A stretch of DNA of 50,427 nucleotides from Promineifilum sp. (GTDB taxonomy: Bacteria > Chloroflexota > Anaerolineae > Promineifilales > Promineifilaceae), in the NCBI GenBank assembly GCA_018058545.1, contig JAGOZU010000013.1, forward strand, positions 1 to 50,427. The letters are read 5' to 3'. The position numbers and the translations under genes were made by a program. Position 1 is the stretch's first letter. The number at the start of each line of letters is the position of its first letter. This document shows, one piece after another, positions 33,124 through 50,342 of the stretch. The notes under the pieces were generated by a model that was not told the DNA's origin, did not search any database, and saw only the letters and a list, made by a program, of their open reading frames with translations.

Positions 33124-34794
33124 TTAGTTATTTTGGACCGGACAACTGACGGTCACATCCCGATAATTGAGGAACCAGGTCGCAAACGAATGAAAGCGAT
33201 CGCGGGGGTGCCAAACACGGCCGATCTCTACCTCTTGCACCGTATCGCTTACCACATAAGTGGCTACAAGTTGATACAAAGACAGCGCAGGGAGATCGCC
33301 ATCGAATTGACGAAGAAAAGCCTCATAATAGGCGACACGTTCGTTCTGAGGATAGATTTGTCTCCCTGCTTCCAGCGCCTCGCTTGCCCGGCGATTGTTC
33401 CACCCGGCGAAATTCTGGCCGCGCACCATCGCCTCCTGGCTCCAGAAATTGTACAGATCCGGGTCATTGGGAGGGGCAATTTTCACCACGGCGACATCAT
33501 AATGTCGGCGGCTAAGCGTCAGGCGCAAGGCATCGATATCCGGCAACAGGGTTAGCTGGACGTCGACACCGAGCGCGGCCCATCGGCGGACTATCTCTTC
33601 GGCTACAGCGCGATATTCCGGTTGGTCGAGTGCGATCATTCGCAGGGTCAGAGGAGCGCCCTCGCGCGTGCGAATGCCTCCCCCCACCCAGCCGGCCCCA
33701 TCCAGGAGAGAGGCGGCCGTTTCAGGCTGATAGGTGTAGTTGGTCATCATATCAGGCCGCGCCGCCCAGTTGCCGGGGATATAAGGTCCCTCAAACTCAA
33801 TGCCCTGCCCATTGAGGATGCTATCCACCAACGAAGTTCGATCCAGTCCATAGGCCAGCGCCTGCCTAACCTCTTTCGTTCGCAGTGCGGCCGCGCCACT
33901 ATCGCTAACATTAAAGTATAGAGCAGAATAGCTTGGAATGATCGATGTAAAGAGGCGAACATCGGGGAGTGCGGCCGCTGCGGGCATCATAGTCGACGGT
34001 AACCCGTTTGCGGCGTGGATTTCTCCGCTCTGAAGAGCAATGAACAGGTCATCGGCTGTGGGGAAGAAACGAAATTCAATATCGCTCAGTTGAGTCCCTT
34101 GCCGCCAGGCGGCCGGGTTTGGCGATAGCCGAATTCGACCCGTGCTCTGCCAATCCTGTCCCGGCTGGACCATGAACGGCCCAGTGCCGACAGGAGTGGT
34201 ATTGAACGCGGCCGTCGCCAGGTCAGCCACGTTGATGTCCTTAAGTAGATGGGCAGGCAAGATACCTCGCGTGACCGCCTCAAAAAATGGCGCATAGGGT
34301 TGAGTCAGGGTGAACTGGATCGTCGTTTCATCCAGAGGGGTGATCGTCACTGCTTGCCAGAGAGAGATTAGATGTTTCGGGCCGGGGAATAAATCGCTTT
34401 GCATCAAACCATAGGTGAAAGCGACATCTTCGGAAGTGACCGGTTGGCCGTCGTGCCATGTCAACCCCTCACGTAACGTAAAGGTGATGACAAGGCCATC
34501 CTCACTGACAGACCACTCCTCGGCCAACGCCGGCACGATCTGGCCTGTTTCATCATAACGAACCAGGCCGTCAAAAATCAGGTCAACCAATTCCCTCTCG
34601 ACGGGATAAGGATCGCTCAGGAGCGGATTGAGGGCCAACGGTCGCCCAACGATCCCTTCGACGAACGTCCCCCCGGCAGCCGGGACGCTGACCGTGCAAA
34701 GCGCCGCCGATTGGACCTGGTATGAGAGAAGCATCAATACCAGGGCCAATCCGGACAACGCCAGCAATGCCTGCCAGCGGATATCAGGTTTCAT
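33124..34794 (-). CDS. orphan family-5 substrate-binding protein
   Basis: 556 residues. The N terminus has a hydrophobic stretch (about 9-31) acting as signal or anchor; a Cys at 33 lacks a good lipobox. The domain order is the normal one: ALNPLLS (about 54-60), TWHDGQPVTSEDVAF (about 112-126), PVGTGPF (201-207), then the second lobe. It is in one unit with secG (30-bp gap) and near tatABC. No permease or ATPase gene adjoins, so it may share another importer or act as a sensor or chaperone. It serves as an internal contrast to the permuted protein at 47318-49126. Confidence 0.92.
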   Translation of the reverse strand: MKPDIRWQALLALSGLALVLMLLSYQVQSAALCTVSVPAAGGTFVEGIVGRPLALNPLLSDPYPVERELVDLIFDGLVRYDETGQIVPALAEEWSVSEDGLVITFTLREGLTWHDGQPVTSEDVAFTYGLMQSDLFPGPKHLISLWQAVTITPLDETTIQFTLTQPYAPFFEAVTRGILPAHLLKDINVADLATAAFNTTPVGTGPFMVQPGQDWQSTGRIRLSPNPAAWRQGTQLSDIEFRFFPTADDLFIALQSGEIHAANGLPSTMMPAAAALPDVRLFTSIIPSYSALYFNVSDSGAAALRTKEVRQALAYGLDRTSLVDSILNGQGIEFEGPYIPGNWAARPDMMTNYTYQPETAASLLDGAGWVGGGIRTREGAPLTLRMIALDQPEYRAVAEEIVRRWAALGVDVQLTLLPDIDALRLTLSRRHYDVAVVKIAPPNDPDLYNFWSQEAMVRGQNFAGWNNRRASEALEAGRQIYPQNERVAYYEAFLRQFDGDLPALSLYQLVATYVVSDTVQEVEIGRVWHPRDRFHSFATWFLNYRDVTVSCPVQNN

Positions 34795-45373: not shown

Positions 45374-47104
45374 TCAGCTGTTATTCCGATTGAGATATTC
45401 CCGGAGGCGCTCATAGGACCAGGTGTTAATGACATTGGCCGATTCGACCCAACCACGCTGGGCCGTGGCAACGCCGAAATGGCGAAGCTCAAATTCCTCT
45501 GGCCGATGAGCGTCAGTATTGATGGCGATTTTGACACCATGCTCGACTGCCATTCGAGCATGTATATCGCGCAAATCCAGCCGGGCGGGATTGGCATTGA
45601 TCTCCAGTATCGTTCCGGTCGCGGCCGCGGCGGCGATGATAGCGTCCATATCCAGATCAGCTCCTGCCCTGTCGGGCAAGAGGCGACCTGTCGGATGGGC
45701 GATCATATCAACATGAGGGTTGTTGATAGCGTTCAACATCCTTTGTGTGGCTTGCTCTCTGGGCTGGCTTAATCCGGTATGAAGACTGGCGATGACAAAA
45801 TCGAGTTGCTTAAGAATATCATCGGGATAATCCAGGGAGCCATCGGCGCGGATCTCCATCTCGGTGCCGTGAAGCACATGAAAGTCGGGGCCAAGCGCAT
45901 TGTTGGCCATCTGAACCTCGGCCGCCTGCTGCTGCAACCGCTCGATGGACAGGCCGTTGGCGATCCCCAGGCTTACAGAATGATCGGTGATAGCGATGGT
46001 GTTAAGCCCTCGATTACGGGCGGCCCTGGCCATCTCCAGGATACTGAGCGTGCCATCGGACCACTCTGTGTGCATGTGAAGATCGCTGCGGATATCCTCC
46101 AGCTCAACTAGCGAGGGCAGTTTCCCGGCCTTGGCCGCCTCAATCTCACCGCGATCCTCGCGCAGCATGGGCGGGATATAAGGCAAGCCAAGTCGAGCGT
46201 AAACCTCCTCCTCGGTTGCACAGAGGATCTCCGGTCCGCCGTCGAGTGGTGTGAAAGAATGCTCGTTAAGTGAATAACCCAGCTTCAGGGCCATTTCGCG
46301 CAGTTTGACGTTATGGTCTTTGTTACCTGTGAAATAAGCCAGCAATGTGCCCCAACGCTCCGCCGGCAGCACGCGAAGGTCGACACCCAAGCCGGTGAGG
46401 AGGCTTACGCGGGAACGAGTTGGCCCACGCGCTTCAACGGATTCGACCATATCCAATTTACCAAAGCGATCCATCACCTGCTCGGGCGAATCGGCCGCCA
46501 CCAGCAGATCGATGTCGCCGATAGTGTCTTTCATCCGTCTTAGCGAACCACCAACAGCCGAGAGCTTGACTCCCGGCACCTGCCTCAAGGCGGCGATCAT
46601 TTGCTGAGCAATGGGCCAGGCGACACCAAGGGGGACACGGTTGTCGCCATGGCGCGACAGGGCTTCGATGGCGGCGACCAGCTTAGCCTCGGACTTCGCG
46701 CCCATGCCTGGCAGATCGCGCAGTTTACCCTGACGCGCGGCGATAGTTAGCTCATCCAGCGTGGTTATATTAAGTGAGTCGTAGATTTGTTTGACACGCT
46801 TCGGTCCCAGGCCTTCGACCCGAAGAAGGTCAACCAAGGTTGGAGGGATTTCCCGAGACAGCTTGTCATAAAATTCCAGCTTTCCGGACGTCAGCAACTC
46901 CTCGATTTTTGCCGCCAGCGTATCACCAATGCCTGGAATATCGGTTAACCGGCCCTCGGCGTATACGGTGTTTATATCCCGACCTAAGGCTTCGATGCTT
47001 TCGGCCGCTCGTCGGTAAGCGAGGATGCGGTGAATCTGATCTCCCCGAATAGCCAGCATATCGGCTATGCGGCCGAATATTTCGACGATATCACGGTTCT
47101 TCAT
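45374..47104 (-). CDS. polX: DNA polymerase X family protein with PHP exonuclease domain
   Basis: About 576 residues from ATG 47104 (open to 47134). An N-terminal helix-hairpin-helix 8-kDa-like region (IPGIGDTLAAKIEELL, GLGPKRVKQIYDSL) comes first. Next is the nucleotidyltransferase palm with GSLRRMKDTIGDIDLLV (catalytic Asp pair). The C-terminal PHP domain (about 340-570) has LHMHTEWSDG, ITDHS, GTEMEI, SLHTG, HPTGR and TDAH metal ligands. It fills short gaps and has 3'-5' exonuclease/AP-endonuclease activities in base-excision repair. A TATAAT box (minus, 47170-47175) lies upstream. Confidence 0.96.
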   Translation of the reverse strand: MKNRDIVEIFGRIADMLAIRGDQIHRILAYRRAAESIEALGRDINTVYAEGRLTDIPGIGDTLAAKIEELLTSGKLEFYDKLSREIPPTLVDLLRVEGLGPKRVKQIYDSLNITTLDELTIAARQGKLRDLPGMGAKSEAKLVAAIEALSRHGDNRVPLGVAWPIAQQMIAALRQVPGVKLSAVGGSLRRMKDTIGDIDLLVAADSPEQVMDRFGKLDMVESVEARGPTRSRVSLLTGLGVDLRVLPAERWGTLLAYFTGNKDHNVKLREMALKLGYSLNEHSFTPLDGGPEILCATEEEVYARLGLPYIPPMLREDRGEIEAAKAGKLPSLVELEDIRSDLHMHTEWSDGTLSILEMARAARNRGLNTIAITDHSVSLGIANGLSIERLQQQAAEVQMANNALGPDFHVLHGTEMEIRADGSLDYPDDILKQLDFVIASLHTGLSQPREQATQRMLNAINNPHVDMIAHPTGRLLPDRAGADLDMDAIIAAAAATGTILEINANPARLDLRDIHARMAVEHGVKIAINTDAHRPEEFELRHFGVATAQRGWVESANVINTWSYERLREYLNRNNS

Positions 47105-47234
47105 GGGTAGTTTCCACGTGGCCCGGTTGCCCAAGGTCGTACTTTACAGGCCTGCACTCATTAGCTTGCATTATACACCAATCATTCTCGATACGGCGGT
47201 ATTCTCGCTCCGGTCAATCCAGCCATTCGATTTC

Positions 47235-47262: not shown

Positions 47263-47317
47263 AATGCTCCTTGTGGAAAGGCGTCTTGCCACGTCCAAGT
47301 TTAGTAGGAGAAAAGAG

Positions 47318-49126
47318 ATGAAGAAGAATCGCTTTTTGTTGTTGATAGGGCTGCTTCTCATCGCTGCCATGACCGTCACCGCTTGTACAGCTACGAGCGG
47401 GGACATTCAGCAGGCGGTCGAGCAAGTAGCGCCGACGCTGGAAGCAGCGGCTCAGGAGATCGCGCCGACGATCGCGGCCGCGGCGACCGAGATCGCGCCA
47501 ACGGTTGCCGCGGTGGCGACCGAAGTCTCCGCTGCGGTGGCGACCTCTGAGCCTGCCGCTGAAGAGCCTGCGGGCGACTTGATGGTCGTCGCAGCCCCGG
47601 ACTGCGATTACGGTGGTCTTTTCAAGGAGATCGCCGCTATCGACCCGTTGACGGTTCAATTCACCATGTGCGCCCCCGACCCGGCCTTCCCGTCCAAGGT
47701 GGCGTTCACCTCGTTCGCCATCCAGCCATCAGAATACCTGGAGTCGACGGGCGGCACCGGTGAATTGCTGGAGCATCCGGTCGGTACCGGCCCCTATATG
47801 GTCGACCATTGGTCTCGTGGTGAGGAACTGGTCTTCACCAAGAACCCCAACTATTGGGGCGATCCGGCCTTCGCCGACACGCTGGTCTTCCGTTGGCAGT
47901 CCGAATCGGCCGCGCGACTCCTCGAGTTGCAAGCCGGCTCTGTTGACGGCATCGACAACCCCGGCCCCGATGATTTCGAGACCATCGCCGGCGATGCCAA
48001 TCTGCAATTACTGGAGCGCCCGGCGCTGAACATCTTCTACGTCGGCTTTAATAACGTCTTCGCTCCGTTCGACAACGAGAAGGTCCGCCAGGCGATCGCT
48101 ATGGGCATCGACCGGGCTCGTATCGTCGACAACTTCTATCCTCCGGGTTCCGAAGTTGCGACGCACTTCACCCCCTGCGCCATCCCCAACGGTTGCGCCG
48201 GCGAGGACTGGTACGAGTTCGATCCTGAGGCTGCTCGCGCTCTCCTGGCCGAGGCCGGTTTCCCGGATGGTTTCGAGACCGAGATCGCCTATCGCGATGT
48301 GGTCCGTGGCTACCTGCCCGACCCCAACATCGTCGCTCAGGACATTCAGGCTCAGTTGGCTGAGAATCTGGGCATCACGGCCACGATCAATGTCATGGAA
48401 TCCGGTGCGTTCCTGGATGCGGCCGACAGTGGCTCGCTGGAGGGGATTTACCTGCTGGGTTGGGGTGCTGACTACCCCGACATGACCAACTTCCTTGACT
48501 ATCACTTTGGCGTCGGCGCCTCGGCTCAGTTCGGCGAAAAGTTCACTGATCTGACTGATGTTCTGACCCAGGCCGCCTCCTTGGCTGGTGATGATGCTCG
48601 CGCCCCGCTGTATGAGCAGGCCAACAACCTGATCAAGCAGCACGTGCCGATGGTTCCGGTAGCTCATGGTGGTTCCGGCGTCGCCTATCTGGCAGCTGTC
48701 CAGAACGCCCATGTGAGTCCGCTCGGCAACGAAGCGTTCTCCCAGATGGATCCCGGCAAGGACACATTCGTCTGGATGCAGAACGCCGAACCGATCAGCC
48801 TCTTCTGCGCCGACGAGACCGACGGCGAATCGCTGCGCGCCTGCGAGCAGGTAACCGAAGCGCTTCTGGCCTACGAGGTTGGCGGCACGGCCGTCGTTCC
48901 GTCGCTGGCCACGAGCTGCGATCCGAATGAGGATCTGACGGTCTGGACTTGCCATCTGCGCGAAGGCGTCACCTTCCACGATGGCTCCGCTCTGGACGCC
49001 AACGACGTGGTGATGACCTACGTGATCCAGTGGGATGCTTCCCATCCGCTGCACGTCGGCAACACCGGCGCCTTCTCCTATTTCTCCGGTCTGTGGGGTG
49101 GCTTCCTGAACGCTCCGGCGGAGTAA
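47318..49126 (+). CDS. family-5 substrate-binding lipoprotein, apparently circularly permuted
   Basis: 602 residues from ATG 47318 (AGGAG 7 nt upstream). The lipobox TVTAC gives Cys23. A repetitive A/T/E/V/I helix (about 28-75) follows, then sequence that in this family normally lies after the FHDG/DV segment: IDPLTVQFTM (108-117), PVGTGPY (154-160), NPNYWGD, FDNEKVRQAIAMGIDRARIV and the second lobe. Past the family's usual C terminus the chain runs on (about 487-602) into what is normally the N-terminal part: EPISLFCADE, EALLAYEVGG, VVPSLA, LREGVTFHDGSALDANDVV, then ends at GGFLNAPAE. All pieces appear once. Codon choice is strongly biased to C/G-ending codons, as for a highly expressed gene. 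The permease genes follow. Confidence 0.9.
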   Translation: MKKNRFLLLIGLLLIAAMTVTACTATSGDIQQAVEQVAPTLEAAAQEIAPTIAAAATEIAPTVAAVATEVSAAVATSEPAAEEPAGDLMVVAAPDCDYGGLFKEIAAIDPLTVQFTMCAPDPAFPSKVAFTSFAIQPSEYLESTGGTGELLEHPVGTGPYMVDHWSRGEELVFTKNPNYWGDPAFADTLVFRWQSESAARLLELQAGSVDGIDNPGPDDFETIAGDANLQLLERPALNIFYVGFNNVFAPFDNEKVRQAIAMGIDRARIVDNFYPPGSEVATHFTPCAIPNGCAGEDWYEFDPEAARALLAEAGFPDGFETEIAYRDVVRGYLPDPNIVAQDIQAQLAENLGITATINVMESGAFLDAADSGSLEGIYLLGWGADYPDMTNFLDYHFGVGASAQFGEKFTDLTDVLTQAASLAGDDARAPLYEQANNLIKQHVPMVPVAHGGSGVAYLAAVQNAHVSPLGNEAFSQMDPGKDTFVWMQNAEPISLFCADETDGESLRACEQVTEALLAYEVGGTAVVPSLATSCDPNEDLTVWTCHLREGVTFHDGSALDANDVVMTYVIQWDASHPLHVGNTGAFSYFSGLWGGFLNAPAE

Positions 49127-49262: not shown

Positions 49263-50342
49263 TTGACCCAATATACAATCCGTCGTCTTCTGGCTGCGAT
49301 CCCTGTCGTCATTGGCGTTTTGATCGTTACCTTTCTATTGGCTCGCGCTATCCCCGGGGAGCCATGCACCGCCATGCTGGGTGAGAAAGCCACACCGGAG
49401 ATATGTGCAGCCTTTGATCGCCAGCATGGTTTCGATCAACCTGTATCGACTCAGTTCATGATCTTCGCCCGCGACATGTTAAAAGGCGATTTCGGGAACT
49501 CCATTCGCTTCAAACGACCGGTGAGCACGATCATGCTGGAGCGGCTGCCACAAACAATCGAGTTAGGCGCGGCCGCGCTCCTGATCGCCGTGGCCGTAGG
49601 CATTCCCTTGGGCATCATCTCGGCCACTCGCCGTAATTCACTCGTCGATGTGGCCACGATGATGGGCGCGAACATCGGCGTCTCCATGCCTGTTTTTTGG
49701 TTGGGCCTGATGCTGGCCTACATCTTTGCGCTACTGTTAAAAGACACACCATTTCAACTGCCTCCCAGCGGCCGTCTCACGGCGGGTATGAATTCGGTCC
49801 CGTTTTATGTGGTCTATGACTTGAATGTCACCGCCGGCACTTTCAAGGAATCGCTTTACATATTCCTAAGCAATTTTTACATATTCAATTCGATCATCAC
49901 AGCCAACTGGACTGTGTTGGCTGATACCATCAAACATCTGATCCTGCCGGCCGTCGCCCTGGCAACCATTCCGCTGGCCATCATCGCCCGCATGACCCGC
50001 TCTTCCATGCTGGAGGTTCTGGGGCAGGATTACATCCGCACCGCTAAAGCCAAGGGGTTGAAAAGTCGGCAAGTCATCATGAAGCACGGCTTTCGCAACG
50101 CCCTTTTGCCCATTGTAACCATCGTTGGCCTTCAATTGGGACTTATCCTGAGCGGCGCCATCCTGACCGAGACGGTTTTCGGACTATCCGGCGTCGGTCG
50201 CAGCCTGTATGAAGCGATCACGGCCCGGGACTACCCGATCATCCAGGGATTCGTCGTCGTCATCGCCATCGGCTATGTCGCCGTCAACCTGATCGTCGAT
50301 CTATCCTATGCTGTTCTGGACCCGCGCATTCAACTGGATTAA
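49263..50342 (+). CDS. peptide/opine ABC transporter permease, DppB type
   Basis: 359 residues. Start TTG 49263 with GGAGG 5 nt upstream; no better in-frame ATG is available. Beginning MTQYTIRRLLAAIPVVIGV is typical of DppB. It has about six spans, the early loop PGEPCTAMLGEKATPE, LKGDFGNSIRFKRPVS and the EAA loop YIRTAKAKGLKSRQVIMKHG. A moderately long external segment (about 165-215) replaces the short loop found in E. coli DppB. Unlike the first importer, it has no Trp-rich insert before LKGDFG. Confidence 0.95.
   Translation: MTQYTIRRLLAAIPVVIGVLIVTFLLARAIPGEPCTAMLGEKATPEICAAFDRQHGFDQPVSTQFMIFARDMLKGDFGNSIRFKRPVSTIMLERLPQTIELGAAALLIAVAVGIPLGIISATRRNSLVDVATMMGANIGVSMPVFWLGLMLAYIFALLLKDTPFQLPPSGRLTAGMNSVPFYVVYDLNVTAGTFKESLYIFLSNFYIFNSIITANWTVLADTIKHLILPAVALATIPLAIIARMTRSSMLEVLGQDYIRTAKAKGLKSRQVIMKHGFRNALLPIVTIVGLQLGLILSGAILTETVFGLSGVGRSLYEAITARDYPIIQGFVVVIAIGYVAVNLIVDLSYAVLDPRIQLD

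Follow-up and report, generated by a model that had tools for sequence, protein, structure and literature searches.

The open reading frame at 47318-49126 (+) of the window, by which we mean the whole stretch of 50,427 nucleotides analysed here, starts with an ATG at 47318 and encodes a circularly permuted, family-5 (DppA-like) substrate-binding lipoprotein of 602 aa. The original prediction had observed that a segment of the N-terminal lobe stands at the C-terminus of this protein and had interpreted it as a circular permutation. The observation is confirmed by our analysis and the interpretation is supported. The parts of the gene and its immediate surroundings are given in Table 1.

Table 1. 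Features of the permuted binding-protein gene and its surroundings (window coordinates)
Feature	Coordinates	Strand	Remarks
Ribosome-binding site AGGAG	47306..47310	+	7 nt upstream of start codon; read directly
Lipoprotein signal peptide, residues 1-23, lipobox VTAC (Cys23)	47318..47386	+	motif only, no predictor
Ala/Thr/Glu repeat stalk and linker, residues 24-97	47387..47608	+	helix 27-76 in model
Main SBP_bac_5 segment, residues 98-481, equivalent to DppA 120-507 (normally second)	47609..48760	+	
Arg330, equivalent to DppA Arg355 (precursor R383), peptide carboxylate contact	48305..48307	+	invariant 59/59
Asp385, equivalent to DppA Asp408 (precursor D436), peptide amino group contact	48470..48472	+	invariant 59/59
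Relocated N-terminal segment, residues 482-597, equivalent to about DppA 1-119	48761..49108	+	
New C-terminal tail NAPAE and stop	49109..49126	+	
dppB permease, TTG start	49263..50342	+	

The swapped order is evident from motifs, alignments and profiles. PVGTGPY lies at residues 154-160 and VTFHDGSALDANDVV at residues 551-565, as had been claimed, and two segments of the protein match DppA in reversed succession. In a search against solved structures, residues 514-592 aligned to DppA 34-118 (i-Evalue 2e-8) and residues 101-476 to DppA 123-503 (1.3e-44). A swapped alignment to the solved DppA, GbpA and HbpA2 structures equated residues 491-592 with their first ~120 residues and residues 100-476 with the remainder. 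The whole protein scored 274.3 bits against SBP_bac_5 (PF00496, gathering score 32.4), the only Pfam family that it matches. When the two pieces were scanned alone, the C-terminal piece matched profile positions 2-45 (E 4.7e-14) and the main piece positions 65-364 (E 2.1e-66), both above the gathering score. Because each scan was significant by itself, the swapped match is far beyond chance. A single collinear SBP_bac_5 match would have refuted the permutation; the match was split and swapped instead, and the protein fails a definition of membership as one collinear match in normal order. The normal-order protein encoded at 33124-34794, which served as the control, gave a single collinear match to profile positions 1-358. 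The window protein meets the definition of a circular permutant, in that both segments are homologous to one parent, their order is swapped, the old ends are fused (at about residues 474-484) and the new ends fall in a loop.

Structure prediction had been proposed as a further check. The AlphaFold2 model, for which 59 collinear sequences (alignment A1) were the input, had a pLDDT of 91.7, and most of the core, including the joint of the old C- and N-termini, exceeded 93. In a sequential structure alignment, model residues 98-480 superposed on residues 120-507 of DppA (1dpp_A) with Z 30.9 and 1.8 A over 381 residues. Residues 482-597 remained unmatched in this alignment, as is expected for a permuted chain. 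The predicted model meets the bilobal DppA-like fold, while the place of the relocated segment within it is inferred from sequence homology and the high pLDDT, without direct superposition. The chain is cut between the strand at 102-109 and its final helix (587-593), so that both new termini are in one loop, in agreement with the original prediction.

The lipoprotein signal and the repetitive Ala/Thr/Glu helix described for the new N-terminus were recovered by motif and in the model, respectively. The protein passes a test for bacterial lipoproteins, carrying the signal MKKNRFLLLIGLLLIAAMTVTAC with a lipobox Cys; this is a motif assignment and lipidation itself is inferred. In relatives, the position of the stalk and linker holds whole additional binding domains. 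The gene had also been credited with a ribosome site, which is present, and with its own promoter, for which a promoter scan found no sigma-70-like candidate. Since the gene upstream is divergent, a separate promoter is nonetheless likely. This divergent gene (45374-47134, -) is PolX-like, with helix-hairpin-helix, nucleotidyltransferase and PHP-like regions recognised by eye. The claim of following permease genes held for dppB, but no further permease lies inside the window, as the contig stops at 50427.

The window comes from a draft assembly of 185 contigs, in which misjoined contigs might have placed the front of a normal gene behind the rest of it and left an artefact or pseudogene. We give this explanation almost no credence. 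A homologue search found the permuted form to be widespread and conserved in Chloroflexota, which removes misassembly as an explanation. Within the family, 35 of 52 genomes encode the collinear form of the window protein (54-85% identity). The fused junction of old end and old start, probed with window residues 400-602 and matched over nearly the full length, was found in at least 140 of 396 genomes of the class, counted among the matches listed; these genomes stem from many projects and include six one-contig assemblies, and conservation on this scale rules out misassembly of the permuted gene. The probe also matched in several families from other Chloroflexota classes, and the junction occurs in Chloroflexales bacterium ZM16-3 (L050), the record title of which lacks a MAG prefix. 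Furthermore, dN/dS against four close homologues (L009-L012) was far below 1, at 0.09-0.16 for the main segment and 0.06-0.12 for the relocated segment. Both segments are under purifying selection.

In one orthologue (L015/L121, G033:C1:327620-329439) an apparent frameshift splits the gene into overlapping frames of 440 and 256 aa; its source is the best-assembled genome of the same genus (5.0 Mb, 3 contigs). Several candidates outside Chloroflexota were rejected. A Thermoplasmata archaeal homologue (L063) that seemed permuted by its summary span actually has the normal order, and apparent junction-crossing matches to plasmid-borne proteins of Paracoccus and Nitratireductor proved to be normal-order genes with spurious extension. 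The phylum-level samples drawn around MAGs named Acidobacteria and Acidimicrobiia overlapped and were not used to judge the distribution beyond Chloroflexota; contigs L057 and L059 could be Chloroflexota sequence that was binned wrongly.

To compare arrangements we labelled window residues 483-597 as segment N and the first and second parts of residues 98-478 as A and B, and assigned cut classes from a doubled query and local alignment to a doubled normal-order core. Discrete classes were seen: the normal N-A-B order, the A-B-N order of the window protein (100 rows), and the separate cuts of L116/L117, L060 and L112/L113. Chloroflexota therefore hold at least four distinct rotations of one fold, one of them imposed on an already rotated copy. 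A-B-N fragments that start at contig ends (L013, L042 and L059) were excluded from trees.

The L116/L117 cut precedes KIPLTLYYMPV and occurs in two genera of the window's family. Both proteins (L116:3539-5503, -; L117:3053-4918, -) are lipoproteins with 86% mutual identity, and their normal-order relatives are ~72-77% identical. In a 43-row tree of un-rotated sequences they were nested in a normal-order clade with support 100/98. The L117 model (pLDDT 86.2) placed residues 243-583 on DppA 1-347 (Z 28.3, 2.6 A); the window protein and L117 cover different stretches of one fold, as expected for two different cuts. The L060 cut lies between NNDVKP and the VRQA helix, and in the same tree L060 was nested in the A-B-N clade with support 100/100. 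A 99-row quick tree agreed with the placement of L116/L117 and of L060. L060 (1572-3602, +) and L217 (556-2349, +) are re-permuted B-N-A proteins. L217 comes from a second genome of the L060 genus (G157) and shares the arrangement with 90% identity over the probe, so L060 is not the oddity of a single assembly. L218, from a related genus (G176), is A-B-N. The L112/L113 cut follows SNGPYEL, and the Pfam match of L112 at residues 86-319 corresponds to profile 128-365. These two (L112:1-4356, -; L113:1691-6193, -) are surface proteins of 1450-1500 aa in which the permuted SBP_bac_5 domain is followed by DUF11, TIG and CARDB domains.

The joints bear on how these forms arose. At the N-to-A position normal-order proteins carry WGGFDDTSIITAVEKIDD, while L060 has TTFLEVPPATATDTKYEAPNCDYGGLMKSIEAVDD and L217 has TAFLEVPPATATDTKYEAPNCDYGGLMKSIEAVDD, which differs by one residue. 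A-B-N proteins end in FLNAPAE and start with APDCDYGGLFKEI. The L060/L217 joint is thus an A-B-N tail that continues into an A-B-N start, the scar of a head-to-tail duplication. The L117 joint, PVGADRFEGVTVDGSDTFIFGRGG, corresponds to a normal C-terminal tail (PVGADYFEFVTFVD in L133) running into a normal mature start. We read the joints as the putative product of head-to-tail duplication and subsequent trimming, a route that is inferred for all lineages other than L060/L217. A normal-order gene would have been duplicated head-to-tail and its copies fused in frame, after which the front of the first copy and the back of the second would have been lost. The old C-terminus would then directly join the old mature N-terminus, turning N-A-B into A-B-N, and a new signal peptide and linker would take over at a surface loop. 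Chloroflexota may have followed this path again for L116/L117, for L112/L113 and for the re-permutation of an A-B-N gene in L060/L217.

A chimera would show an identical domain order: the protein's own N-terminal lobe segment would have disappeared, and the front part of some other binding-protein gene would have been appended behind the rest. The authors of the Tp0684 study mention such grafting among the possible origins of that protein (PMC4990184). We consider it improbable here. Across all relatives the identity of one piece tracks that of the other, with r 0.97 for the window protein and 0.95 for L117, which speaks against grafting and points to one shared history. Moreover, the two parts of L117 have the same normal-order proteins as relatives, mostly at 72-77% identity, and the L060/L217 scar joins the tail and start of its own lineage. 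A weightier alternative concerns not the route but its direction and number: A-B-N might be ancestral in Chloroflexota with the normal order later restored, or might have arisen 2-3 times at one hot-spot loop. A 99-row quick tree needs several A-B-N label changes (at least three) and puts L152/L155, which are A-B-N, beside normal proteins. In the more careful 43-row tree, by contrast, A-B-N falls on one side of a weak branch (64/37) and a single A-B-N group is not rejected. The normal clade includes proteobacterial and archaeal proteins, which makes the normal order more likely ancestral. We therefore regard this alternative as unlikely, without dismissing it.

A surviving tandem double SBP_bac_5 gene was looked for and none was found. 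Large ORFs tried as tandem-duplication intermediates (L112-L115, L118, L128, L139, L141, L142, L145 and L209-L212) included no double SBP_bac_5; all turned out to be fusions to other domains, and alignment spans of more than one full circle were due to SBP_bac_3 or LivJ-type domains aligning weakly.

Some relatives combine as many as three binding domains in one polypeptide (L162:2122-5541, -; L209:771-4814, -; L210:3266-7276, +). In these, either a LivJ-type and an SBP_bac_3 domain or two very similar tandem LivJ-type domains are combined with a permuted SBP_bac_5. L211 (1409-4666, +; 1086 aa) joins a caspase-like domain (Peptidase_C14), an FHA domain and an apparent transmembrane helix to a permuted SBP_bac_5, and looks like a peptide-sensing receptor. 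L214 (939-3788, +) has a haem-binding-like part (CxxCH), SBP_bac_3 and a permuted SBP_bac_5. Normal-order SBP_bac_5 domains are found at the terminus of L114 (312-4928, +; 1539 aa), with BTAD, protein kinase, AAA_16 and TPR domains, and enclosed in a long repeat protein, L212 (3-5558, -). That the fold accepts its termini at different places is probably due to the long stalk, flexible or helical, that carries the lipid anchor. We favour, with some reserve, the wider view that head-to-tail duplication and trimming occurred repeatedly in Chloroflexota family-5 proteins, that the stalked lipid anchor tolerated many loops as cut sites, and that rotated forms became C-terminal modules of multi-headed receptors with LivJ-type, SBP_bac_3, caspase/FHA and haem-binding parts.

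In DppA, the peptide is held at its two ends by Arg355 and Asp408, and charge reversal of these residues abolishes dipeptide binding (PMC12136057). Their equivalents R330 and D385 show no substitution in any of the 59 permuted sequences examined. The window DppB keeps an E41-K42 charge pair where the scoop loop of E. coli DppB has E41-R42. dppC lies downstream of all A-B-N loci with sufficient downstream sequence and dppB at nearly all of them; L116, L117 and L060 share the downstream dppC, and nearly always dppB. On the strength of the invariant residues, the DppB charge pair and the dppB/dppC neighbours, capture of small peptides for a DppBCDF-type ABC importer is the best reading of the window protein. 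It is an inference, made without expression, binding or transport data.

The ligand might instead be a metal chelate, glutathione, heme or an opine, with the protein acting as receptor or scavenger. All of these are bound by family-5 proteins, and the window protein misses the cut-off of the DppA equivalog (NF043070, NCBIfam) by a wide margin (201.1 versus 1005 bits). We think this rather unlikely, since both salt-bridge residues for the peptide termini are invariant in the permuted sequences, the partner DppB retains the charge pair opposite them, and HbpA2, considered an improbable binder of dipeptides, has lost the Asp (PMC3295651). Taken together, we hold with high confidence that the best explanation is an A-B-N lipoprotein, derived by duplication, that serves a DppBCDF-type importer.

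Natural circular permutations are usually known as an isolated topology pair, and their origins are mostly inferred. In Chloroflexota, a single fold has been cut at four or more points, near neighbours keep the normal order, and two genomes share a doubly permuted lineage whose fused joint retains a scar. The duplication-fusion-trimming route becomes directly testable by sequence and by rebuilt normal-order forms, and rotated relatives make natural permutation events visible. A large family of importer proteins is also only partly read by collinear domain tools. In the literature on permuted or oligopeptide-binding SBPs, with subscription journals mostly outside our scope, we found only Tp0684 and engineered cases; within the same scope we found no report of a permuted family-5 protein or of several cuts in one family.

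The window protein resembles E. coli DppA and the SBP_bac_5 family in its fold, its ligand-contact Arg and Asp and its dppBC neighbours. It departs from DppA in its swapped segments and in the place where lipid anchor and repeat stalk meet the fold. Its closest precedent is Tp0684 (TpMglB-2, 'Type Ic / Cluster Bc') of Treponema pallidum, likewise a natural circularly permuted, lipid-anchored ABC-transporter binding protein, which is functional by ITC (PMC4990184). Natural permutation of a sugar-binding protein is in this sense already known. Tp0684 has a Type I fold, binds glucose, belongs to another sequence family and has one reported topology, whereas the window family has several cuts; its permuted segment shows a 13% match to its normal relative (PMC4990184), whereas that of the window protein is clearly homologous. 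The window protein also fails the Type Ic / Cluster Bc criterion, homology to MglB-type Type I binding proteins. The recurrence at several cuts, the re-permutation with a scar and the membership in a peptide family look new. Relatives of the window protein carry several binding domains per chain, as does GlnPQ; the GlnPQ domains are fused to the permease (PMC8025302), whereas the Chloroflexota relatives chain LivJ-type, SBP_bac_3 and permuted SBP_bac_5 domains without one. Finally, the permuted halves of ribose-binding protein (PMC9815098) are a laboratory construct that tests the tolerance of a fold, whereas the Chloroflexota series is natural.
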